DNA of 22,572 nt from a virus, in the IMG/VR virus record IMGVR_UViG_3300032282_000391, positions 1 through 22,572 of that record; one strand, given 5' to 3'. A model generated the notes under the pieces. It searched no databases and was not told where the DNA came from. It was given only the letters and a program-made list of their open reading frames with translations. Numbering within the stretch: the stretch's first letter is position 1; every line of letters starts with the position of its first letter. Below are positions 5,443 through 16,355 of the stretch, piece after piece. A program made the position numbers and the translations under genes.

Positions 5443-5491
5443 ATTTGTTATGAATCTTCCTTTCGTAGCGAAAGCAAAAATAGGAGATAAC

Positions 5492-6394
5492 ATGAATAAA
5501 ATAGTAATGGCACTACTAACAACGATGCTTCTTAGCGGAGCTGCTATGGCTGAACCTGTAAGGGGATATGGCGATAGTCAACCAAAGAAGAAGATATCCG
5601 CGAAACAGGCTGAAAAATATTGCAACATGAGCGCTCAAACGAAATATGCTCACTATGCAAAATACTGTAAGCAACTACAATCGAAGAAAGTGACACCGAA
5701 GATCGAAGAACCTATTATGGCTTCTTCTAGTTCCGACGAGTCATCAGGAGAATACTTTAGAAAAGCTTCTCAAGTCTCTTCAACTAAATTCTTCGCAGGA
5801 TGGCAAGAGCTGCCAGCTGCGCCGATTGAGTCTACAAAAAGAAAAGAGTCAGCACCCAAGAAGATGGCTATTATCGACCTGAACACAAATGTTCCAGGCG
5901 GGCCTCTAACTCTGTCTCAACCTTCCCCACATCCAGATAAAGCTCGTCGTGGACGAACACCAGCTCCGATATTTGCGCCAGAACCTGTGCGTATCGCGAG
6001 GGAGTGGGAAGGATATAGCATCTTCAAGAATAGGGGTGACTTGATTAAGTTGCTCTCTGAGGGTAACGAAAAGAAAATCGATCCATCAAGAATTCCTTGG
6101 TGCGCTGCTTTCGCTAATGCAATTCTAAGTCAAGCGGGATATGAAGGGACTGGATCTCTACTAGCTAGAAGCTTTTTAGGATACGGTATTCCTACTACAT
6201 ATCCAGCAGAAGGTGACATCGCTGTGTTTTCTCGTGGTAGAAATCAAGTCGCAGGTCATGTTGGATTTTATGTAGGTGAGGAAACCGTAGAAGGCGTTAA
6301 ATACATCAAAGTGTTGGGTGGAAACCAACGCAAAGGTGTCAGCGTAGCTTACTATCCTGCAGGTAGACTGTTGGGATATCGCAAGATTGGCTGA
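5492..6394 (+). CDS. Secreted NlpC/P60-type cell-wall hydrolase (TIGR02594-like), probable endolysin
   Basis: A 300-aa protein with a Sec-type signal peptide (MNKIVMALLTTMLLSGAAMA, then EPV). Next come a short Cys-containing region (CNM and YCK around residues 44-55) and a long low-complexity linker (about 65-170). The C-terminal peptidase-like domain (about 170-300) has catalytic-type Cys in PWCAAF, His in GHVGFYVG, and the closing block VLGGNQ...VSV..YP..R.LGYR. These match the TIGR02594 family of amidase/endopeptidase proteins. Export by a signal peptide means lysis would not strictly need a holin for its release. The start at 5492 is set by TAGGAGATAAC; an upstream Met at 5450 has no ribosome site and would mask the signal peptide. 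A terminator follows. Confidence 0.82.
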   Translation: MNKIVMALLTTMLLSGAAMAEPVRGYGDSQPKKKISAKQAEKYCNMSAQTKYAHYAKYCKQLQSKKVTPKIEEPIMASSSSDESSGEYFRKASQVSSTKFFAGWQELPAAPIESTKRKESAPKKMAIIDLNTNVPGGPLTLSQPSPHPDKARRGRTPAPIFAPEPVRIAREWEGYSIFKNRGDLIKLLSEGNEKKIDPSRIPWCAAFANAILSQAGYEGTGSLLARSFLGYGIPTTYPAEGDIAVFSRGRNQVAGHVGFYVGEETVEGVKYIKVLGGNQRKGVSVAYYPAGRLLGYRKIG

Positions 6395-6460: not shown

Positions 6461-6468
6461 TATAAATA
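6461..6468 (+). promoter_or_regulatory. T4-type late promoter (TATAAATA) for the HAD phosphatase gene
   Basis: Exact TATAAATA box. T4 late transcripts begin about six bases after the box, near 6474 here. That leaves only about three leader bases before ATG 6477, so this mRNA would be nearly leaderless. The AGG at 6468-6470 would not be transcribed from this promoter. Confidence 0.8.
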
Positions 6469-6476
6469 GGATTATA

Positions 6477-7085
6477 ATGATAAAGTTCAAGGAGTTTATC
6501 GCAGAAGACGTTAGTGGTAGCTTGTCGGTATTCGATATCGACGACACACTATTCAGCACAACAACGCAAGTCCTGGTTAAAAAGGACGATAAGGTTGTAG
6601 AAAAGCTAACTCCAGCAGAATTCAACGTATACAAGCTAAAGGACGGTGAGGAGTTCGACTTCGCTCAGTTTCGTTCGTCAAAAGTGTTCGCAGACACAGC
6701 AAAGCCAATTGATACTGTATTCAAGACCGCTAAGAAGATGATTAATCGTTTTCGTGCGCATCCGAATAAGCGCATTATAATTTGCACTGCGCGAGCAGAT
6801 CTAGACGACAAACATCTTTTCCTTGATACGTTTCGTAAGTATGGATTTGACGTCAGTCAAGTACACATCTATCGCGCAGGGAATATCAAAGCTCCTGGCG
6901 CAGAAGCAAAGAAGCAGATTGTTCGCGATCAGCTCAAGGCTGGTAAGTATCAGGTAGCTAGAATGTTCGATGACGCTAAGGCTAATCTAGATAAGTTCAT
7001 TGAGCTTCATCTAGAGTTTCCTAAAGTGAATTTCGAAGCATTTCTGATTCACGAAGACGGACGCATCACGAGGTATAATGGCTAA
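6477..7085 (+). CDS. HAD-superfamily phosphatase with capsid-targeting-like N-terminus
   Basis: A 202-aa protein. HAD motif I is FDIDDTLF at residues 19-26 (nucleophile Asp20, Asp22). Motif II is IICTAR at 101-106. A Lys-rich helix around 135-148 can supply motif III, and motif IV is MFDDAKAN at 163-170. The small or absent cap fits nucleotide or 3'-end phosphatases, such as the phosphatase half of T4 polynucleotide kinase, but the substrate is not determined. The first ten residues, MIKFKEFIAE, closely match the T4 internal-protein targeting peptide MKTYQEFIAE, with Glu10 at the expected gp21 cut site. The late promoter and terminator upstream place it in the virion-stage programme. The frame extends upstream to 6453, but the motif and promoter set the start at 6477. 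Confidence 0.88.
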   Translation: MIKFKEFIAEDVSGSLSVFDIDDTLFSTTTQVLVKKDDKVVEKLTPAEFNVYKLKDGEEFDFAQFRSSKVFADTAKPIDTVFKTAKKMINRFRAHPNKRIIICTARADLDDKHLFLDTFRKYGFDVSQVHIYRAGNIKAPGAEAKKQIVRDQLKAGKYQVARMFDDAKANLDKFIELHLEFPKVNFEAFLIHEDGRITRYNG

Positions 7086-7091
7086 TTTTTT

Positions 7092-7099
7092 TATAAATA
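7092..7099 (+). promoter_or_regulatory. T4-type late promoter (TATAAATA) for the 391-aa gene
   Basis: Exact TATAAATA between the HAD gene and the His-rich gene. Initiation near 7105 gives a leader of about 28 bases with an AGGT ribosome site at 7124-7127. Confidence 0.8.
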
Positions 7100-7132
7100 G
7101 GATAAGTCGTTTCACAGGCCATTAGGTAAATA

Positions 7133-8308
7133 ATGATTTCTTTCAAAAGATTCATAATCGAACAACAAACGAGCGAGGACCCTGATCCTACTCGTCATCA
7201 CGTCGAAATGTATATGTCTCCACAGGGACATAGAGTTATTCGCGTTATGAAATCAGATTCATCTGAACGACCAGACGATTACGAGCAGAGCTATCATCCT
7301 ACAGAAGATAAAGATAACCCCGACGAACCTACTGATGATTCTACACCTCCAGATGATTCAGGACCTGATAGAGAACAGGATCCAAATAATGGTGAAACTA
7401 AGATCGGCTTGAGAAAAGAACCTATCGAAATAAATCCTAAGCTCAGAGAACAAAAAGAAGTAATCGTAGAAGGTAAGCCTTACAATCCGAACGAACCTCA
7501 AGACACGCTCGGTGGTGATTCACATAAGATGTTATCACAATTTCATCCATCTTCGTGGGATCATCATACGATAGCTAAAGAGTTCCATAAGCATTTACAT
7601 AAGAACGGATACTATATGCATACGCCAACTCATCCTCTTGTGATGAGTCCAAAAGATCAGGCGTTTAAAAGCGGATTCAAAAGAAAACAAAGAGAAGTTA
7701 AGGGTTTACCTCCAGATCCTACTCATGAAGTTCCGCATCACGACGGTTCTATTAATAGAAAAGTTGACCCTAAGTCTAAAGTAGGAACAATGGGTAAGTT
7801 TGTTGCTCTGTGGAGTTCACAGAAACATCTTCCTAGTGAAAAGCAAAATCCGTCAGGAGTATCTACTAAGATATACACTAAAGATAAAAAAGAAATAGGC
7901 AAGCAGCACGAAAGAGATAGTCATGTAGTCGTGAACAACGATTCTGAAACTAAACACTCAGCTGGACCAGAACACAATCGTTGGTTCATTCGCGCGGGCG
8001 AAATCCGTAAAATTCCTCCTGGAGGAATAAGCGCACCTACGGGAACGAAAGGCGCCATAAAACATTATGGCAACGATTACGATTCCTATATCAAAGACAG
8101 ATATCATAACGTGCCTCAGCATCATAAAGACATTGTAGATTATCATAACGATAAGACTTCAAATTCTACACCAGAACAGAAGAAAAAGGTTATGGATTTT
8201 GTTCAAAAAAGCCATCCTGAATTTCACGATTTGCATCAATCGGGTAAGTTGACAACAAAGAAAAAAGTAGCAGGCGAAAAGAACCAACAACCTCATTTTG
8301 TGAAGTGA
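7133..8308 (+). CDS. His- and Pro-rich protein with capsid-targeting-like N-terminus, function unknown
   Basis: A 391-aa, very hydrophilic protein. It starts MISFKRFIIE, matching the T4 capsid-targeting pattern with Glu10. Residues 45-90 are an acidic Pro/Asp-rich linker. KEPIEINPKLRE at 95-106 reappears almost unchanged at the C-terminus of the 489-aa EF-hand protein; it ends in LRE, a gp21-type cleavage pattern. The rest (about 120-391) is rich in His and Lys with no motif I can assign, though GPEHNRWFIRAGEIRKIPPGG (about 280-300) looks like a folded core. The late promoter, targeting peptide and position next to HAD and ligase-like genes suggest a packaged internal protein. DNA becomes more AAA/AT-rich towards its end. 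Confidence 0.75.
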   Translation: MISFKRFIIEQQTSEDPDPTRHHVEMYMSPQGHRVIRVMKSDSSERPDDYEQSYHPTEDKDNPDEPTDDSTPPDDSGPDREQDPNNGETKIGLRKEPIEINPKLREQKEVIVEGKPYNPNEPQDTLGGDSHKMLSQFHPSSWDHHTIAKEFHKHLHKNGYYMHTPTHPLVMSPKDQAFKSGFKRKQREVKGLPPDPTHEVPHHDGSINRKVDPKSKVGTMGKFVALWSSQKHLPSEKQNPSGVSTKIYTKDKKEIGKQHERDSHVVVNNDSETKHSAGPEHNRWFIRAGEIRKIPPGGISAPTGTKGAIKHYGNDYDSYIKDRYHNVPQHHKDIVDYHNDKTSNSTPEQKKKVMDFVQKSHPEFHDLHQSGKLTTKKKVAGEKNQQPHFVK

Positions 8309-8315
8309 TAGTAAA

Positions 8316-9647
8316 ATGTCAACATTAGCAGCAGGAGAATTACTTAAACACGATTATCGTATTGCAGCTTTTCTGCTGAAATACAAGAAAGGTGACGCAT
8401 TCGAAACGGTCAGCGGTAAAAAGGTGAAATTCATGTATGATGAAGATATCGCTGCAGCTGTCAAAAAGAAAAATTCTAAAGTAATAAGTGCTTCATTTCT
8501 AATAGCAACGAATAAAAAAGACAGATATAAATTCAGTGACCTAAAGAAAACTGATGATTTCAAACCTGTAACCAAAAATCCGAAGAAAACAGAAACAGGC
8601 GATAAAGTTCCACCACTTGGTTATGTTGCTGAAGGCGTAATTATGGCTTCTATGTTGGCAAGATTTGTTAACAAAGCACAGGCAATAAGCGACTCTGACG
8701 TTGTTACTATGATAAAAGCAATCAAATCAGCTCCTGATAAAGGTGATCAAAAATCTGTACTTAAAGTAGTGAAAATGCAATCAGCAAACAAAAATCCAAA
8801 ACTGTTTGATACAATCATAGCAGAAGTAGGTTTAGCTAAAAACTATTATAAATTTTTGGTTGATCCTAAAAGCTTAACAGTTCTTAAGCCTTATATATCT
8901 GGTGCTGTCACGTTTGCGAACAGCATTACAGTTAGAAAATGGGCTGATTTGTTTTATGAAAACGACCAAGAAAACAAAATTGTAATCATGGGAACAGGTA
9001 TTTCTGGTCAGTCTGAAACGAAAGCCGACGTAGAAGTTTATGCTGGCTTGATAAGAGATATAGAACTGAATAGAATAAACCTAGACGTTTCTGTCAAATC
9101 TAATGACATCAAACAATTTGGTCAAGTATCTGGATCTGAGTTTGAAAAACAGTTATATCTATGGGAATCATTATTATCCATAAACATAAAGAGTAAACAA
9201 AAAGAATACAACAAATTTGCTGCTGAAGCCAAACTTGATGAAGCGATCACTCTTGCATACGAATACGCAGCTGCAGAATTCAATAAGCAAACGAAAGCTT
9301 TAAAAATTAAAAATGTTGTTGATGGGTTGGTTTTCCATGCAACGAAAAATCGCGAAACAACAACAGTCAGTCTTAATAAAACAGGTGCATCATTATATAA
9401 ACCATCAGAATTAAAAATGAGATTTGCGAACTATAAACCGAAAGATATAACTGCTGATGTTTGGATGGGTGTAGATAAGAATGATCCAACTAGAAAACTA
9501 CCTAGATTGGTTATCTATGTTGACGGAGAAAAACTATTACAAGTTAGAAATGGCAGCACGGCTAAATCTAATGGTGAACGATATGTTCGAAACTATATAG
9601 AAGGTGAAAGCTTATACTTTTCAATTATTGCTGAAGATTTCAAATAA
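8316..9647 (+). CDS. 443-aa protein, possible PD-(D/E)XK nuclease-like
   Basis: No certain family. Residues 100-120 (GYVAEGVIMASMLARF) form a helix with Glu107. Around 230-275 the pattern SGQSETKADVEVYAG, then LDVSVKSN, then KQFGQVSG resembles the strand-turn-strand core of PD-(D/E)XK nucleases: Asp238, then SVK ending in Lys261, with Gln267 and Gln270 after. The usual acidic residue two before the Lys is Ser, which is atypical, so activity is uncertain. Its base composition is clearly more AT-rich than its neighbours and most lysines are AAA, hinting at later acquisition. It starts eight bases after the 391-aa gene with only a weak ribosome site, so it probably shares that late transcript. 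There is no targeting peptide. Confidence 0.7.
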   Translation: MSTLAAGELLKHDYRIAAFLLKYKKGDAFETVSGKKVKFMYDEDIAAAVKKKNSKVISASFLIATNKKDRYKFSDLKKTDDFKPVTKNPKKTETGDKVPPLGYVAEGVIMASMLARFVNKAQAISDSDVVTMIKAIKSAPDKGDQKSVLKVVKMQSANKNPKLFDTIIAEVGLAKNYYKFLVDPKSLTVLKPYISGAVTFANSITVRKWADLFYENDQENKIVIMGTGISGQSETKADVEVYAGLIRDIELNRINLDVSVKSNDIKQFGQVSGSEFEKQLYLWESLLSINIKSKQKEYNKFAAEAKLDEAITLAYEYAAAEFNKQTKALKIKNVVDGLVFHATKNRETTTVSLNKTGASLYKPSELKMRFANYKPKDITADVWMGVDKNDPTRKLPRLVIYVDGEKLLQVRNGSTAKSNGERYVRNYIEGESLYFSIIAEDFK

Positions 9648-9677
9648 TAAGCACACCACTATAAAGAGGAGATAACA

Positions 9678-9803
9678 ATGATTGAATCACTATTCTGGCT
9701 TGCAGTAGGAACGTTCGTAGGATGGAACTTCCCTCAACCTAACTTCGCTAAGAAGATCCAAGGATGGGTTGTAGAACTATACAAAAAGAATCCTACTAAC
9801 TGA
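9678..9803 (+). CDS. 41-aa conserved hydrophobic peptide
   Basis: A short gene with a strong ribosome site (AGAGGAGATAACA) directly before ATG 9678, ending at TGA 9801-9803. The product begins MIESLFWLAVGTFVGWNFPQP. That is a short membrane-compatible helix with the FW...G.F.GWN..PQP pattern, followed by a basic amphipathic tail. Peptides with this pattern recur in marine T4-like phages, from memory. A single-span or membrane-associated role is likely; a holin or anti-holin function is possible but unsupported. A weak late-type box (TATAAAGA, 9660-9667) lies just upstream. Confidence 0.75.
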   Translation: MIESLFWLAVGTFVGWNFPQPNFAKKIQGWVVELYKKNPTN

Positions 9804-9857
9804 CCCCTGCGCACATTTGCTATTATATGGTGTAAAAGCAGATTTGTCAAGACTTAT

Positions 9858-9865
9858 TATAAATA
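9858..9865 (+). promoter_or_regulatory. T4-type late promoter (TATAAATA) for the ligase-like gene
   Basis: Exact TATAAATA. Initiation near 9871 would give a leader of about 73 bases. That leader contains the second copy of the 18-base repeat but starts inside the 5' arm of the first hairpin. Confidence 0.8.
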
Positions 9866-9866
9866 A

Positions 9867-9898
9867 GAGAGCAGTTAGGCTACGGCAATCCTGCTCTC
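9867..9898 (+). other. RNA hairpin in the ligase-gene leader
   Basis: A perfect eight-pair stem, GAGAGCAG (9867-9874) with CTGCTCTC (9891-9898), encloses a 16-base loop TTAGGCTACGGCAATC. There is no T run, so it is not an ordinary terminator. The same loop sequence recurs 37 bases downstream. Confidence 0.7.
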
Positions 9899-9928
9899 GA
9901 ACTATTTGCGGTTAGGCTACGGCAATCC
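9874..9928 (+). repeat. 18-bp perfect direct repeat, two copies
   Basis: GTTAGGCTACGGCAATCC occurs at 9874-9891 and 9911-9928, 37 bases apart. The second copy can also sit in a hairpin loop: TTTGCGG before it pairs with CCCACAAA after it, with one mismatch. The unit is conserved exactly while the flanking stems differ, suggesting the loop is the functional part. Confidence 0.85.
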
Positions 9929-9943
9929 CACAAAGGAAGTATT

Positions 9944-11125
9944 ATGAAGGGTTTCAAGACGTATATGAGGGAAGCTGCGTTCTCTGCTGAAGAGGATAAG
10001 TCCCACTATACGCATATCGAAGATGAGATCTACGTTTTAGGCGTAGGATCCATCAGAAAGATTAGCGAATACTTTCATGACCTGATTAAGGGCATTCCTG
10101 AAACTGTAAATCAAACTAAGATCGACGGCGCTCCAAGTATCTTCTATGGATATCAGAACGGCAAGTTCTTCGTAGCAACTAAGTCTATCTTTAACAAAGA
10201 TCCGAAGATCAATTTTACGAACGAAGATATTGATGTTAATCACGGACACGCTCCTGGGCTTGTAGCTAAACTAAAGCTCGCTCTAGAGTATCTTCCCTCA
10301 ATCACAAACAACAAAAACGAAATCCTTCAAGGCGATATGATGTTCGCCAAGGTTGATCTGAGAAAGACCAATATCGAAGGAATCCCTCACTGGTTGTTCA
10401 AGCCAAACACAGTGACAAACGCAGTTCCCGTCAATTCTGATTTGGGTCGCGAGATCGCTCGCGCTGCTATTGGATTCGCTCCTCATACGAAATACAACGC
10501 ATCTGGTAGCCGTGTCACGATTCAAGCTCGCGATATGAAAAAGAACGCTCATGTGTTCCTAATGCCTATTGATGCTCCTTCGCTTGGAGACGTAGGACAT
10601 CTACAGACGTTCATCGGTCAGATCGATAAGCTTCTCGCTTCACTTTCGAAAGATGATCTTGGATACGTCTCTACGCCTGAGATGAATCCTCACTTCCTTG
10701 CTTATGCCAACTATGTCATTCGTAACAACAGCATTCAGTCTTATTCTGGATTCGTTGATTATATGAAACAGAAGCTTCAAAAGGAAGTCGACAAGGCTAA
10801 GAGCGTAGATGGTAAAGCTAAGAAGCAAAAGATTCTAGACGACATGATTAGCGGCGTTGAATCAAACAAAACGATTATCAATAACGTTCTTTCTGTTCAC
10901 AACAAGATTGGTGATATCAAGGATAAGATTATCGACGAACTTGATACGTATCAGCCTATTCGCAGATACTTCGAAAATGAGTTTGGTGGATTAGTAAAAA
11001 CAAATCCAGAAGGATATGTGCTTCTCGGTAAACATGGTACTGCAAAACTTGTGAAGCGTCGCGTCTTCAGTATGCAGAACTTTGCTGCTGGAGCATTCAG
11101 AAAGGCGGCAGCGAAAGATGAGTAA
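9944..11125 (+). CDS. Ligase-like covalent nucleotidyltransferase (KxDG) with capsid-targeting-like N-terminus
   Basis: A 393-aa protein beginning MKGFKTYMRE, which fits the targeting pattern with Glu10. The ordered motifs resemble ATP-dependent DNA/RNA ligases. Motif I is KIDGAPSIF at residues 59-67, with Lys59 as candidate adenylated residue. GKFFVATKS (73-81) follows, a motif III-like LQGDMM lies at 128-133, a motif IV-like EGYV at 356-359, and a motif V-like KLVKR at 368-372. Residues 270-340 form a helical insertion rich in Lys. Marine T4-like phages carry homologues usually labelled only as unknown, from memory. Enzyme activity is inference from motif order. The start has AAAGGAAG upstream, and the stop overlaps the next gene by eight bases. 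Confidence 0.72.
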   Translation: MKGFKTYMREAAFSAEEDKSHYTHIEDEIYVLGVGSIRKISEYFHDLIKGIPETVNQTKIDGAPSIFYGYQNGKFFVATKSIFNKDPKINFTNEDIDVNHGHAPGLVAKLKLALEYLPSITNNKNEILQGDMMFAKVDLRKTNIEGIPHWLFKPNTVTNAVPVNSDLGREIARAAIGFAPHTKYNASGSRVTIQARDMKKNAHVFLMPIDAPSLGDVGHLQTFIGQIDKLLASLSKDDLGYVSTPEMNPHFLAYANYVIRNNSIQSYSGFVDYMKQKLQKEVDKAKSVDGKAKKQKILDDMISGVESNKTIINNVLSVHNKIGDIKDKIIDELDTYQPIRRYFENEFGGLVKTNPEGYVLLGKHGTAKLVKRRVFSMQNFAAGAFRKAAAKDE

Positions 11126-13865
11126 GTCTGTTGTAGTTCTTCCTCTAGGTAGATTTCAACCTCCGCACAAGGAGCATAAGAATCTCGTTGATGCTGTGCT
11201 GAAACTAGCAAAGCAAACACACAGTGACGCCAAGATATTCGTTTCGCGCACAGTCGATAAGAAAAAGAATCCGCTGACTCCACAGGAAAAGATTAAGTAT
11301 CTGAACAAGATGTTTCCTGGACACAAGGGTCTGTTCGATATGCCGCCCGCTTCTACTCCTACTATGATTGGTTCTCTCGCTGAACTATCTGGTAAGTACG
11401 ACACGGTTCATATCGTATTGGGTGACGACAGAGTTGATGCTACAGAAACGCTCGTTAACAAGTACAATGGAAAAGATTTCACGTTCGAAAAGATTGTTGT
11501 TCATTCGCGTCATTCGATTATCAATACTCGTGTTGGTGATGCTGACGGCGTACACGCTTCGGATATTCGTAAGTGGGCTCAAGAAGGCGACTTCGATAAA
11601 GTTCGAGCCGAGATGCCTGAGAATATGTCAGATGCAGACGTAAAAGGAATTATGCGTTTGATTCAGACACGACTAGGAAAGAAGGAAATGAAGGAAGAAG
11701 TAAATCCTCTCGATGAAGTCTTTGCTCAACTCATGTTCGAAGAAGCAGATGAAACTGATTTAGACATCACTCTTCCTTCCGACGCAGAAATCAAAAAGCA
11801 ATTAGATCGTATGTCTAATGATGAATTAGATATGCAAGATGACGACTGGATGGTAGCTGATCTTATCGCTGGTCCAGAAGTCTGGGACGAAAAGGGTGAG
11901 AAAGTAGATGCGCATGAAGCTTTGTCTATTCAAACTCGTCAGAAACGTTCACAGCGTTTTAAAGCTATGTCAAAGCGTTTGGCTAAGATGCGTCAAATCA
12001 AATCGAAGCAAATGCCACAGGGTCAACGTCTTCGTATGAGAGCCCGCAAAGCTGCTCTTATGATGCTTCGCGCACGTGCTACTGGTAAGAAGAACTTGGA
12101 TTATGCTTCTTTGTCTCGTGGACAAAAAATTGCAGTTGATAATGCTCTTATGCAGCGTTTCGGAAAGCGTCTCAAAAACACTGTAGATGCTTATGCCAAA
12201 CGCATTCTCCCTAGAATCCGCTCGAAAGCTCAGGATTCAGTTAAAAAGGCTCGCGATATGAAAGAATCATACGTCAACGAAATATTTTCTCAGAGCATTT
12301 TCAGCGATAAGAAGAAGAGCAAAGAAGGTACGCCACAAGATGTTGCTAACGATAAAATTCAAGCAGCACAGCGTGGCGTTTCCGTAAAAGACTGGGAAAA
12401 GACTAAGGCTGATAAGAAACACGATTCTCCGTTGAATGTTGATGGACAGAAGTTGGATACCTTAGATACTGATCCTATGCTGAACGATCGCCTTGCGCCA
12501 AATCCAAAGCAAGGACACCTTAATGTCCACATGAAAAAGACTCACGTCTACGGTAAAGCATTAGACGATTCATATAATCCTTCGATAGAAGAAGGTCGTA
12601 AGTCTGCTTCCGATAAAGATGCTCGCGATGCTGGTGACACGAACATTATCTATCAGATGCGTAAGACTATTAACTCTCGTGGCGAACACGAAACTGTTTT
12701 TGCTGATGGACATAAAGCGCATATCTCAATCAACGACGCAAAGAAACTTCTTGCTAAGTTCGAAGCACTTCGTTTGCCTGCTGATAAGCATAAGTTCACT
12801 ATCGCTGCTGGTGCTAGTGCTAAGAGTTTCCACGACGTAATGGCTCACGGTATTCCAAAGGATAAGCCTAAGATCAGTCTTGGCGGAAAGACATTCAAAG
12901 AATTCTACACAGCTGGAGGCAACACTCGCGCTGTATCTCCTTATGATAAGGATGAGCCTCCTGGTGTTCGTAACATCGGCGAAGTTGCTAAAGACGAAGA
13001 TCGTCCTACTGATCCAAATCAATCACGCCCACTGAGTCAGAAGATGGATTTGCTTCTTCGTCTTGGTCTCGTAGATCAGGAAGAACTACAGAAGTATCGT
13101 CGTGCGTTGCGTTCTAGCAAGAAATTTGCTCTCCAGAGTCCTCAGATGCGCGAGAAGCTTGCTGATTTGCTAGACAAGCTGATTGATCTAACAACTAAGG
13201 ATGCCGCAACTTACTCTCGCGTGCGATACAACGTAACAACGAAAGAAGCTGTATCGCTTATGCGTAAGGCTGAATATTCAGGCGTTGATATCGAAATCAT
13301 TCAGGAAGTATTCGCACGTGGTCTAGAAGAAAACGATGATGTCAATAAAGCATTCGCTCGTGTGAACTCGTTCATCGCTGGTGGATTCGCAGCTAAGTTG
13401 GATGAAGATCTAACGGAAGACGGAAAAGGTTACAAGAACCCAACTGGTGGCTTGACTCAAAAAGGTCGTGATCATTATAATAATCAAACAGGCGGTCATT
13501 TAAAGGCGCCAGTTACTACTCCTCCATCAAAACTAAAAGCTGGTAGTAAAGCGGCTGGTCGTCGTAAGTCATTCTGTGCTCGTATGGGTGGCGTCGAAGG
13601 ACCAATGAAGAAGCCTAACGGCGAACCAACTCGTAAGGCACTAGCATTGCGTAAATGGAACTGTCGCAGCGAAGATACTCAGGTTGATGAGAAGCGTGGA
13701 TTGTGGGATAATATCCATGATAAGCAAAAGCGCATCAAGAGCGGTTCTGGTGAGCGTATGCGTAAGCCTGGATCTAAGGGCGCACCAACTGACGCAGCTT
13801 TAAAAGCTTCACAAACTGAAGAACTCGATCGCGCATTCGAAGCTCATATTGATTCAATTAAATAA
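11118..13865 (+). CDS. 915-aa multidomain protein: N-terminal HxGH nucleotidylyltransferase plus virion-type modules
   Basis: Residues 1-185 form a nucleotidylyltransferase domain of the NMNAT/cytidylyltransferase type. GRFQPPHKEH at 11-20 matches GRFQPxHxGH, except that Glu replaces the Gly before the last His, and HASDIRKWA (146-154) fits the ISxxxxR site. Next come an acidic linker (about 190-260) and a strongly basic helical domain (about 270-395). A middle region is followed by a helical domain (about 640-780). Near the C-terminus, KGYKNPTGGLTQKGRDHYN and RRKSFCARMGG match a phage domain of unknown function (I recall DUF6321; not certain). The start at 11118 overlaps the ligase-like gene by eight bases, so the two are coupled. 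Likely a large virion or core-associated protein. Confidence 0.8.
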   Translation: MSKSVVVLPLGRFQPPHKEHKNLVDAVLKLAKQTHSDAKIFVSRTVDKKKNPLTPQEKIKYLNKMFPGHKGLFDMPPASTPTMIGSLAELSGKYDTVHIVLGDDRVDATETLVNKYNGKDFTFEKIVVHSRHSIINTRVGDADGVHASDIRKWAQEGDFDKVRAEMPENMSDADVKGIMRLIQTRLGKKEMKEEVNPLDEVFAQLMFEEADETDLDITLPSDAEIKKQLDRMSNDELDMQDDDWMVADLIAGPEVWDEKGEKVDAHEALSIQTRQKRSQRFKAMSKRLAKMRQIKSKQMPQGQRLRMRARKAALMMLRARATGKKNLDYASLSRGQKIAVDNALMQRFGKRLKNTVDAYAKRILPRIRSKAQDSVKKARDMKESYVNEIFSQSIFSDKKKSKEGTPQDVANDKIQAAQRGVSVKDWEKTKADKKHDSPLNVDGQKLDTLDTDPMLNDRLAPNPKQGHLNVHMKKTHVYGKALDDSYNPSIEEGRKSASDKDARDAGDTNIIYQMRKTINSRGEHETVFADGHKAHISINDAKKLLAKFEALRLPADKHKFTIAAGASAKSFHDVMAHGIPKDKPKISLGGKTFKEFYTAGGNTRAVSPYDKDEPPGVRNIGEVAKDEDRPTDPNQSRPLSQKMDLLLRLGLVDQEELQKYRRALRSSKKFALQSPQMREKLADLLDKLIDLTTKDAATYSRVRYNVTTKEAVSLMRKAEYSGVDIEIIQEVFARGLEENDDVNKAFARVNSFIAGGFAAKLDEDLTEDGKGYKNPTGGLTQKGRDHYNNQTGGHLKAPVTTPPSKLKAGSKAAGRRKSFCARMGGVEGPMKKPNGEPTRKALALRKWNCRSEDTQVDEKRGLWDNIHDKQKRIKSGSGERMRKPGSKGAPTDAALKASQTEELDRAFEAHIDSIK

Positions 13866-13905: not shown

Positions 13906-14208
13906 ATGTCTGATGAACTGATTACCATTATTGCTTTTGTCGTTGTTGCTTTAGGTATCGGATGGTATATGTGGCCTAAGCAAAAGATAGAGGAACCAAA
14001 GCTAGATCCTGTTTTGGAACCAGCCCCTACTCCTGTTGTTGAGGAAGTAAAGCCTGCGCCAGTTGCTTCACTAGAACCAGTTGTTGCTCCTGAGCCAGTT
14101 GTTGAAGCTCCGGCTCCGGCTCCAGAACCAGTCAAGGTCGAAGCTCCAGTAGCTGCACCAAAGGCAAAAGCAAAGAAAGCGCCAGCTAAGAAAGTTACAA
14201 AGAAATGA
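13906..14208 (+). CDS. Single-span membrane protein with Pro/Ala-rich stalk and Lys-rich tail
   Basis: A 100-aa protein: MSDEL, one membrane helix (about 6-24), then a 55-residue Pro/Val/Glu/Ala stalk with repeated EPV and APAP units, ending in a KAKAKKAPAKKVTKK tail. The stalk resembles TonB-like extended spacers and the tail resembles histone H1 or HU-type tails that bind nucleic acid. The ATG at 13906 is preferred because AAGGAG lies eight bases before it; the ATG at 13900 is too close. The stop overlaps the Dps-like gene (ATGA), so the two are made together. Function unknown. Tethering DNA or polyanions to a membrane, or minor virion DNA binding, are possibilities. Confidence 0.75.
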   Translation: MSDELITIIAFVVVALGIGWYMWPKQKIEEPKLDPVLEPAPTPVVEEVKPAPVASLEPVVAPEPVVEAPAPAPEPVKVEAPVAAPKAKAKKAPAKKVTKK

Positions 14209-14645
14209 ACGACGAACTCGTAGAATCACTCAAGAAAGCTCAAGCGACTAGCTTTGCGTTTTATCTAAAAGCGCATAACTATCACTGGAATGTGGAAGGA
14301 CCTGACTTCGCACAGTATCATGATTTTTTGAGTGATCTCTATGCGGAAGTGTTTAGCGCAGTAGATACTATTGCAGAGTTGATTCGTACTCTAGATGCGT
14401 ATGTTCCTGGATCATTTTCACGTTTCCAGGAGCTATCAACTATCGAAGATGAGTTATCTGTTCCTAAGACATTAGTTATGATGTCTAGACTTTATACCGA
14501 CAATCAACGTGTTCTTGCAACTCTAAATGGCGCTTATCGTATCGCAGAAGCTGCTGATAAGTTTGGTATTTCTAATGCTATACAAGATCGTATCACCGCA
14601 CACGAAAAGCACGGATGGATGCTCCGTTCATTCACTAAGGAGTAA
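14205..14645 (+). CDS. dps: Dps-family ferritin-like protein
   Basis: A 146-aa helical-bundle protein. The Dps ferroxidase signature is present: HNYHWNVEGPDFAQYHDF at residues 24-41, then VDTIAELIR at 53-61. This gives ligands His27, His39, Asp54 and Glu58 in the expected spacing; HEKHGWMLRSF (133-143) matches the family's final helix. Dps dodecamers oxidise and store iron and shield DNA from hydroxyl radicals. Length is slightly below bacterial Dps, and there is no Lys-rich N-terminal tail for DNA binding. The co-translated neighbour, however, ends in a Lys/Ala-rich tail. It lies inside a virion-gene run with ATGA coupling upstream and two bases to the next gene, so packaging or late expression is plausible. 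Confidence 0.88.
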   Translation: MNDELVESLKKAQATSFAFYLKAHNYHWNVEGPDFAQYHDFLSDLYAEVFSAVDTIAELIRTLDAYVPGSFSRFQELSTIEDELSVPKTLVMMSRLYTDNQRVLATLNGAYRIAEAADKFGISNAIQDRITAHEKHGWMLRSFTKE

Positions 14646-14885: not shown

Positions 14886-16355
14886 ATGTCATCTATTGAT
14901 AAAAAAGCATTTGGTCTTAGCGATTCGCTAATCAATGCAGTAAACGAAGCACTAAAAGGTGGTCAGGTCAAGATTGACAAGAATCACAACGGCAAGATTG
15001 ATGGTCAAGACTTCAAGATGCTCCGTAAGGAAGAAGTGCCTCCTGGCTCTGTAGAAAAGCAGAACTATGATCACAAGATGATGAAAGAAGGCAATCCTGC
15101 TAATAAGGAAAAGAAGAACGCAGCCGCAGCTGCTGTAGGTGCTAAGAACAGAGATAGTCAGTACCTAAGCAGAATTAATCCAAGCGTTGCTGATAAGATT
15201 CGTGGTCGCGAAAAGATGTCAGGTAACGATCGTCAGCAGCACGAAGAAGTAGAGCAGGTAGACGAGATTTCTTCAACACTCCTTCACAAAGCTAAACAAG
15301 TTGCTCAGAAAAAAGCAGGTTGGTTGATGCCAGGTGATGGCGGTAAGGGTGACAAAGCATGGAATAGAGTTAGAAAATTCCGCGATGCTGGTGTAGCAAA
15401 AGAAAAGCAGGAAAAGGCTGTCAAGGAAGAAGTCGTTGACGAAGAAAGAATGTCAAAAGGTAGAAGAGATGCTCTTGCTAGAAAGACTTCTTTCACTGCA
15501 GATCCTCCAAGAAGACTTGAACCAGAACAAAAAAAAACTAAATCCGACAAGATGAAAGCATATCGTGCTGATCGCGATAAGCACATGGAAGAAGAAGTCG
15601 AACAGATCAATGAAATTGGTGATACAAAGCGTGGGCAGAAACTTATTAATAAGGTCCATAAGAGAGCATCTGAACGACTAGGTAAGGCTGTTGCTAATAA
15701 AGATCCTAAAAATGCTAGAAAGTATCAAGAGGTTGGTCATCAAGCTTGGGATAGGATGCCATCCAATAAGTATGAAGAAGTCGAGCATATGGAAGAAGCT
15801 TACGATGATAACAGTTCTAATGTCAGTGATTGGTCAGATAAGAAGCTAAAGTGGCACAAGGAAAAGCTATCTTCATCTTCTGCTAAGGCTCACTCTGAGC
15901 TTGTTCGTCGTTCGAAGACTGGTCAAGCAGCGCCTAAGAAGACTAATGAAGAAACTGATCCAGGATTCGTAGCTGAAGTTCAGCGCCGCGCTGATGTGAA
16001 TATGGTCAAGGTTCGTATGCCTGACGGCAGTATCAAATACAAGAAAGTTAGAGCACATACTGCCATCCAGCACGAAGCTAATGATGCAGTGTCTAATCAA
16101 ATTGCAGCTAAGAAAGATGCGTTCAAAACTCAGCTCCAACAGAAAATTGCTTCCAAGCAAATGAATGTAATGCAAGCTAAGGCTAATAAGCGTCTATCCA
16201 ATATCAATGCGAGCAACGATAAGTGCACTTGTCAAGAAGGCAAAGGCAAGAGCATGACTTGTGAGATGCATGGTGATACTAAGAAGCTGAAGGGTGGCAA
16301 AGAACCAATCGAGACTAATCCTCCGCTTCGCGAAGCACAGGTCAAGACTAAATAG
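14886..16355 (+). CDS. 489-aa modular virion-type protein with EF-hand loop and repeated EEVEQ modules
   Basis: LSDSLINAVNEALKGG (11-26) leads into a near-canonical EF-hand loop at 31-42 (D-K-N-H-N-G-K-I-D-G-Q-D), predicted to bind calcium. The EEVEQxxEI motif recurs at about 119-129, 235-245 and, degenerate, 297-304. Each copy is followed by a small basic helical module, giving a beads-on-a-string layout. CTC..C..H at 447-462 could bind zinc. The C-terminal KEPIETNPPLRE (472-483) is shared with the 391-aa internal-protein candidate and ends in a gp21-like LRE|A site. The protein is highly charged with no membrane part. This suits a prohead core or scaffold-like role with processing. That function is inference. 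Confidence 0.75.
   Translation: MSSIDKKAFGLSDSLINAVNEALKGGQVKIDKNHNGKIDGQDFKMLRKEEVPPGSVEKQNYDHKMMKEGNPANKEKKNAAAAAVGAKNRDSQYLSRINPSVADKIRGREKMSGNDRQQHEEVEQVDEISSTLLHKAKQVAQKKAGWLMPGDGGKGDKAWNRVRKFRDAGVAKEKQEKAVKEEVVDEERMSKGRRDALARKTSFTADPPRRLEPEQKKTKSDKMKAYRADRDKHMEEEVEQINEIGDTKRGQKLINKVHKRASERLGKAVANKDPKNARKYQEVGHQAWDRMPSNKYEEVEHMEEAYDDNSSNVSDWSDKKLKWHKEKLSSSSAKAHSELVRRSKTGQAAPKKTNEETDPGFVAEVQRRADVNMVKVRMPDGSIKYKKVRAHTAIQHEANDAVSNQIAAKKDAFKTQLQQKIASKQMNVMQAKANKRLSNINASNDKCTCQEGKGKSMTCEMHGDTKKLKGGKEPIETNPPLREAQVKTK

Follow-up and report, generated by a model that had tools for sequence, protein, structure and literature searches.

Three proteins encoded in a viral genome fragment of 22,572 nucleotides (the window; IMG/VR record IMGVR_UViG_3300032282_000391, positions 1 to 22,572) share a ten-residue N-terminus which, on our analysis, is very probably a T4-type capsid targeting sequence that would load a HAD-fold phosphatase, a His-rich protein and a DUF6267 ligase-like protein into the prohead. 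The T4 internal proteins IPI-IPIII bear such a sequence (Mullaney and Black, 1996, as cited in PMC9026906). The genetics of IPIII assigns capsid targeting to positions 4 and 7 and gp21 processing to positions 8 and 10, and gp21 cleaves by the rule L/I-x-E. The positions shared by the three tags of the window are these same four, named independently by T4 genetics.

6477..7085, + strand: HAD-fold phosphatase with an FDIDDT motif, 202 aa; matches PHROG 415 (polynucleotide kinase), E 1.8e-9
6477..6506, + strand: tag 1, MIKFKEFIAE; fits gp21 L/I-x-E, with the cut expected after Glu10
7133..8308, + strand: His-rich protein (30 His), 391 aa; no known family
7133..7162, + strand: tag 2, MISFKRFIIE; fits L/I-x-E
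9944..11125, + strand: DUF6267 ligase-like nucleotidyltransferase, 393 aa; Pfam E 4e-73
9944..9973, + strand: tag 3, MKGFKTYMRE; the Met preceding the predicted cut is non-consensus

Three tagged proteins in the window

The initial annotation had reported a shared start on three otherwise unrelated proteins, and both parts of that statement are borne out. Each decapeptide begins at an ATG preceded by a plausible ribosome-binding site (codons ATG ATA AAG TTC AAG GAG TTT ATC GCA GAA at 6477, ATG ATT TCT TTC AAA AGA TTC ATA ATC GAA at 7133 and ATG AAG GGT TTC AAG ACG TAT ATG AGG GAA at 9944), and no homology among the three proteins was detected past the decapeptide. Large aromatics occupy the targeting positions of all three (F4, with F, F and Y at position 7). 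The HAD and His-rich proteins have I8 and E10, the IAE of tag 1 being the same as in T4 IPII and IPIII, and the DUF6267 protein has M8 and E10, with V8 in its close orthologues. A gp21-type cut site, earlier proposed for all three proteins, is present with I8 at 6477 and 7133, while Met8 places the 9944 protein outside the strict L/I-x-E rule. The likeness to IPI-IPIII extends to the length of the tag, to aromatics at 4 and 7 and Glu at 10, to an aliphatic residue at 8 in tags 1 and 2, and to mature parts that are mutually unrelated. Unlike IPI-IPIII, which are small basic proteins with one repeated peptide, the window has diverse tags on cargo that looks enzymatic (the HAD phosphatase and the ligase-like protein).

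At the DNA level the three tags agree pairwise at just 17-18 of 30 positions, and conservation is therefore at the level of the protein; a recombination cassette conserved as DNA was rejected on this ground. The same figure bears on the idea that the tag is a functionless mark of shared ancestry at a recombination hot spot, carried by enzymes that are packaged otherwise or contaminate virions. The T-even internal proteins, which vary yet have a common tag, lend this idea some colour, but we consider it very improbable: the positions lying between the key ones are free to vary in aligned DUF6267 and HAD homologues, whereas F4 and E10 are kept in homologues as distant as 38-47% and are invariant across 16 aligned HAD homologues with identity down to 38%.

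Occurrence of the tag in related phages

The pattern M..[FY]..[FYMWLH][ILMV].E was scanned across ~1 Mb of related sequence. It was derived from the window's own three tags, its positions coinciding with those of T4 genetics, and it constrains only about six residues, set after the fact, which leaves room for chance resemblance. Internal methionines matched in only 6 of 10,046 cases, a rate from which ~0.017 matches are expected among the window's ~28 genes (three by Poisson, ~1e-6), and N-termini were enriched 32-fold over internal methionines (P ~1e-24, DUF6267 left out). Pair-coupling statistics computed without use of the motif ranked the residue pairs 7+10, 4+10 and 4+7 strongest, with 8+10 fifth. 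The motif search recovers IPII and IPIII in the T4 control and finds no match in lambda or T7. T4 gp61.1 has a start of this kind too, MKTFKEFIKE. These comparisons refute chance, to which we give almost no weight.

A search of related genomes for the same start on unrelated proteins, suggested in the initial annotation, was strongly positive, with the tag heading ~30 unrelated families. Tagged genes can be neighbours: one relative (L221) has as many as five in a row, and in another (L213) four are packed into 3 kb. The tag is not universal, since strict searches for the motif in G002, HTVC008M and S-PM2 yielded few convincing tagged genes or none at all; a G002 match at 9515 is the start of uvsX and was treated as a chance match. 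A distant blastn search (6-12 kb against phage records) returned a sole match of 80 bp, in cyanophages. We recognised no report of the tag outside T-even phages in the literature searched, which lay mostly outside subscription journals.

Two neighbours of the tagged genes were searched for a tag and none was found on either, and a third protein downstream contains possible internal sites:

8316..9647, + strand: PHROG 3560 protein, 443 aa, by PHROG match; untagged in the window
11118..13865, + strand: cytidylyltransferase/NMNAT-like protein in fusion with both DUF6321 and a GLWDNIH module; untagged N-terminus
13680..13691, + strand: internal QVDE site, with the predicted cut after the Glu, just upstream of the GLWDNIH module, from comparison of GLWDNIH contexts
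14886..16355, + strand: basic protein in which EEVEQ-type linkers, with xxE at their end, recur (VDE 127, INE 243, MEE 304)

In L047/G003 a 444-aa protein, alike in length to the window PHROG 3560 protein, is tagged MFKFKDFLTE, and homologues of the window cytidylyltransferase carry an N-terminal tag in relatives and cyanophages. The basic protein is a candidate multi-site protease substrate; S-SCSM1 proteins with similar EEVExVDE-type linkers carry a virion-protein annotation.

Virion proteomes, late promoters and processing

Published mass spectrometry places tagged proteins of other families in virions. These are T4-GC190 of S-SM1 (MKKFSAFLNE, the only ATG-started tag match in the whole S-SM1 genome), the NMNAT of S-SCSM1 (MKSFLQFLKE), the SAM lyase (MKDFDSFLEE), kinase (VKRFDAFLTE) and cytidylyltransferase (MKNFSSFLTE) of S-CREM2, the cytidylyltransferase of S-SZBM1 (MRFRQFIIE) and, reportedly, the kinase of S-CRM01 (MISFDQFLSE). 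Tagged NMNAT/cytidylyltransferases are virion proteins in four isolates. In these sources, 6 of 9 pooled tagged genes appear in virion lists against 1.6 expected (P 0.0016), a test that scores the 9-residue S-SZBM1 tag as a match and mixes studies of different depth. The small tagged proteins SSCSM1_30, SSZBM1_191 and SSZBM1_192 (105-165 aa) are absent from the virion lists of their phages. The authors of the S-CREM2 and S-SCSM1 papers raise the possibility of contaminants in CsCl-purified particles, and some virion proteins of the same gene cluster, such as SSCSM1_90, lack the tag, both of which would suit enzymes that are packaged by other means or contaminate the preparations. The window proteins share their tag with the virion enzymes of S-SCSM1, S-SZBM1, S-CREM2 and S-CRM01; unlike those enzymes, the cytidylyltransferase of the window is untagged at its N-terminus.

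The initial annotation had counted against targeting any homologues that lack this start in phages with the gp21 protease. Such homologues occur for DUF6267, which is untagged in S-PM2, S-SM1, Syn9, P-SSM2, S-SZBM1 and S-CRM01. We read them as a removable tag that changes the cargo rather than as a refutation; the untagged S-SZBM1 protein is absent from the main text of that paper, the part that holds the virion list, where its tagged neighbour is listed.

Exact matches to TATAAATA, the T4 late promoter, occur three times in the window, one upstream of each tagged gene and nowhere else:

6461..6468, + strand: late-promoter-like TATAAATA ahead of the HAD gene, also conserved in its close orthologues
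7092..7099, + strand: late-promoter-like TATAAATA ahead of the His-rich gene, exact match
9858..9865, + strand: late-promoter-like TATAAATA ahead of the DUF6267 gene, at a similar position in G001

Within 110 nt the box precedes 39/134 tagged genes versus 154/3840 others (odds ratio 9.8), and in relatives it also precedes gp18, gp22, gp23 and gp3. With these boxes and their enrichment in relatives as proxy, the three tagged genes would be expressed late. The window, a genome fragment, is without its own gp21; a gp21-family (Peptidase_S77) protease is present in four relatives, including the 154-kb G001, whose DUF6267 protein is 80% identical, and in the isolates S-CREM2, S-SZBM1, S-SCSM1 and S-CRM01. 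In the 154-kb relative, gp23 carries SLLGE at residue 62, with the predicted cut after the Glu.

The tag might instead be a docking peptide, possibly uncut, for the baseplate, neck, replisome or membrane. The DUF6267 model has a short helix at its N-terminus (predicted at residues 2-13), of a kind that could bind many partners, several tagged genes sit among replication genes, and the cut is a prediction from sequence. Against this, conservation falls on the positions of the T4 tag, those of the L/I-x-E cut among them, and late promoters lie upstream of the tagged genes. Moreover, [ILVMF]xE lies 1-3 residues upstream of the GLWDNIH module in 14/14 distinct contexts, whether at an N-terminal tag or internally, as expected for cutting and not for docking. 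We therefore regard docking as unlikely, though the least improbable of the alternatives.

Late promoters, the protease of relatives and the virion mass spectrometry of homologues concur with the re-use of the tag and support the earlier view that all three would be internal capsid proteins. In the mechanism we favour, they would be made late in infection and residues 4 and 7 would draw each into the prohead scaffold core; targeting to the head is the step we hold with most confidence. The phage gp21-family protease would then cut after Glu10, releasing the ten residues, which is likely overall and rather less secure, though still probable, for DUF6267. The mature proteins would stay with the packaged DNA and could enter the next host cell, injection being somewhat better than an even prospect.

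Candidate enzymatic cargo and its meaning

The HAD protein retains D20, D22 and T24 (DxDxT) invariant in its aligned homologues. Its predicted fold (pLDDT 87, residues 1-10 being the least confident block) best matches the Lem4 HAD domain and T4 Pnkp in the PDB (Foldseek 6cgk, E 2.4e-4; 2ia5, E 3e-3), and a phmmer search gave no convincing match; among phage families it is nearest to the Pnkp phosphatase, a distant similarity. The DUF6267 protein has the ligase-type motifs KIDG (59-62), EGYV (356-359) and KLVKR; in 17 homologues K59, D61, G62, E356, G357 and V359 are invariant and KLVxR nearly so. Its similarity to T4 RNA ligase, through the KxDG, EGxV and KLV motifs, is likewise distant: Foldseek matches to the model (pLDDT 82.5) are mostly RNA/DNA ligases at the top but weak (best E 0.04, TM ~0.2), and an HMM search against PDB sequences found no ligase and no convincing match. 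The His-rich protein is narrowly distributed, with copies in only two contigs, 98% identical. We know of no head-loading of T4 Pnkp or the T4 RNA ligases. The T4 ADP-ribosyltransferase Alt, a head-carried enzyme that gp21 trims and that reaches the host cell, is a parallel to what is proposed for the window proteins; unlike the window tags, its N-terminal propeptide has 7 residues, and Alt is also cut at its C-terminus.

NMNAT, kinases and SAM lyase recur in cyanophage virions, and the papers, in the parts available, leave real cargo versus contaminants undecided and draw no link between virion presence and a targeting sequence. A ten-residue rule readable from sequence would explain why these enzymes are found there and would predict the virion cargo of uncultured T4-like phages. 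As a Pnkp-like phosphatase and a ligase-like protein are among the putative cargo, and NMNAT is tagged in relatives, we tentatively suggest that in this T4-like lineage the tag marks swappable, enzyme-rich cargo with which the virion delivers a nucleic-acid end-repair and NAD-handling kit that acts before phage genes are expressed. If so, host nucleases or NAD-depleting defences may be among the targets of the kit, and the tag would point to candidate counter-defence proteins. The tag probably marks the proteins of these phages that enter the cell alongside the DNA, and the first-delivered proteins of a phage would thereby become findable by genome search.

Tagged genes and late-promoter boxes

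The T4-like phage window, which at 22,572 bp is the entire IMG/VR fragment, carries uvsX, gp41 helicase, a cluster of hypothetical proteins, gp61 primase and a gene for ribonucleotide reductase; S-PM2, S-SM1 and S-SCSM1 share this gene order. The three T4-type N-termini (tags) that the initial annotation claimed at 6477, 7133 and 9944 are present as described, each with an ATG start codon and a plausible ribosome-binding site ahead of it. Features of the region are:

5450-6394, CHAP-domain relative of baseplate hub/tail lysozyme, immediately upstream of the tagged cluster
6477-7085, plus strand, HAD phosphatase, MIKFKEFIAE
7133-8308, plus strand, His-rich protein, MISFKRFIIE
9874-9927, two direct copies of GTTAGGCTACGGCAATCC, located in the leader that separates the late promoter from the DUF6267 start
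9944-11125, plus strand, ligase-like DUF6267 protein, MKGFKTYMRE
14205-14645, Ferritin/Dps-like protein of the same gene run (Pfam Ferritin, E 3.6e-22)
14886-16355, protein with three EEVE(Q/H)xxE linkers; a different protein from the His-rich one, with which it has the segment KEPIE(T/I)NP(P/K)LRE(A/Q) in common

Exact copies of the T4 late-promoter box, TATAAATA, number three in the window, both strands counted; they lie at 6461, 7092 and 9858, and each tagged gene has one of them upstream. Over all loci, 39/134 tagged genes have the box within 110 nt, against 154/3,840 others. In two related genomes it is present on the main coding strand and on the other 20 times and once (the 154-kb G001) and 14 times and never (G002), and gp18, gp22, gp23 and gp3 are each preceded by it in at least one of the two. 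The box of the HAD gene is just 8 nt from the ATG, so either a transcript from it would have almost no leader or the HAD gene is also read from upstream.

Non-randomness and portability of the tag

In a sample of about 1 Mb, comprising loci around DUF6267 homologues and several whole genomes, the motif M..[FY]..[FYMWLH][ILMV].E was found at 39/2,029 distinct N-termini (DUF6267 excluded) compared with 6/10,046 internal methionines, a 32-fold enrichment (P 1e-24). When every pair of positions from 2 to 13 was scanned for coupling without use of the motif, the strongest three pairs were aromatic-7 with Glu-10, aromatic-4 with Glu-10 and aromatic-4 with aromatic-7, and aliphatic-8 with Glu-10 ranked fifth. 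Published T4 IPIII genetics assigns residues 4 and 7 to targeting and 8 and 10 to processing, so positions 4, 7, 8 and 10 are recovered independently. No gene start of this type was found in the lambda and T7 genomes, and the matches in T4 are IPII, IPIII and gp61.1. The last (54 aa; NC_000866 18966-19130, minus strand) starts MKTFKEFIKE, a full match, and is a candidate further T4 internal protein; gene 61.1 adjoins gene 61, as does the tagged cluster of the window.

The same start was sought on unrelated proteins of related genomes and was found: when tagged proteins are compared without their first 12 residues, they form roughly 30 groups unrelated to one another. Their genes cluster (five consecutive in L221, four in 3 kb in L213, five in 5.5 kb in L072), and the tagged gene between CHAP and DUF6267 varies: G001 has HAD there and L013 His-rich, L017 has another protein of 180 aa, and the window has both HAD and His-rich. 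HAD homologues of 38-47% identity retain Met1, Phe4 and Glu10 while the intervening residues vary. Among 66 distinct DUF6267 cores, recovered by core motif, 41 are tagged and several more carry a nine-residue variant, M.F..[FY][ILMV].E; no cyanophage member among these cores is tagged. The tag is an optional, not a fixed, attribute of each family.

A second stretch of about 35 residues, A..LGL..DGHG.W.D..G..., lies downstream of the tag in otherwise different proteins, namely a kinase, an NMNAT, a Cas9-like protein and DUF6267. Carriers are S-CREM2 (OR473000) ORFs 12 and 14, S-SM1 T4-GC190, S-SCSM1_91, P-SSM2 158143, L034 3747, and S-CRM01 128c and 130c.

Predicted proteolytic cutting

Relatives encode a gp21-family S77 prohead protease, and their gp23 retains a site of the same type (SLLGE|TAPTN at 62 in G001). 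The GLWDNIH module provides an independent test of cutting: [ILVMF]xE ends 1-3 residues upstream of it in 14/14 distinct contexts, which are partly interrelated and do not represent 14 independent events. In five of these the upstream element is an N-terminal tag or tag-like start, and in the rest it is internal to a larger protein, as in the window cytidylyltransferase (11118-13865; QVDE|KRGLWDNIH). In structure models, residues 1-10 are among the least confident (pLDDT 47 for HAD, 59 for DUF6267), and the predicted HAD fold begins with a strand at residue 14.

Virion data and putative cargo

T4-GC190, the sole gene of the S-SM1 genome with an ATG-started tag match, was detected in virions in published work. 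The published virion list of S-SCSM1 has one of two matches, the NMNAT (MKSFLQFLKE), and lacks the 106-aa SSCSM1_30; that of S-CREM2 includes all three (SAM lyase, GTG-started kinase and cytidylyltransferase). The S-SZBM1 cytidylyltransferase (MRFRQFIIE) is listed in virions, while the main text of that paper makes no mention of the tagged SSZBM1_191 and SSZBM1_192 (105 and 165 aa), nor of the untagged DUF6267, SSZBM1_141. Pooled, 6/9 tagged genes appear in virion lists against 1.6 expected (P 0.0016). The three misses are weak but real counter-evidence, as they are small proteins in data sets of shallow or moderate depth. A virion protein of S-CREM2 annotated as Cas9-like (OR473000 7704-10313, minus strand) has a displaced motif, PLRFASFMAE at residues 15-24, and S-CRM01 128c is similarly arranged.

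The proposal that the three tagged proteins are internal capsid proteins is supported, with two corrections: the residue preceding the predicted cut in the window DUF6267 is non-consensus, and the tag is optional within families. The HAD protein is closest to Pnkp-type phosphatases, and no relatives of the His-rich protein were found outside two contigs. Motifs of ligase type are present in DUF6267, and mostly RNA and DNA ligases match its predicted fold, but with weak scores, so "ligase-like" is an inference at the superfamily level. Purely as a hypothesis, the three proteins might constitute an injected end-repair kit.
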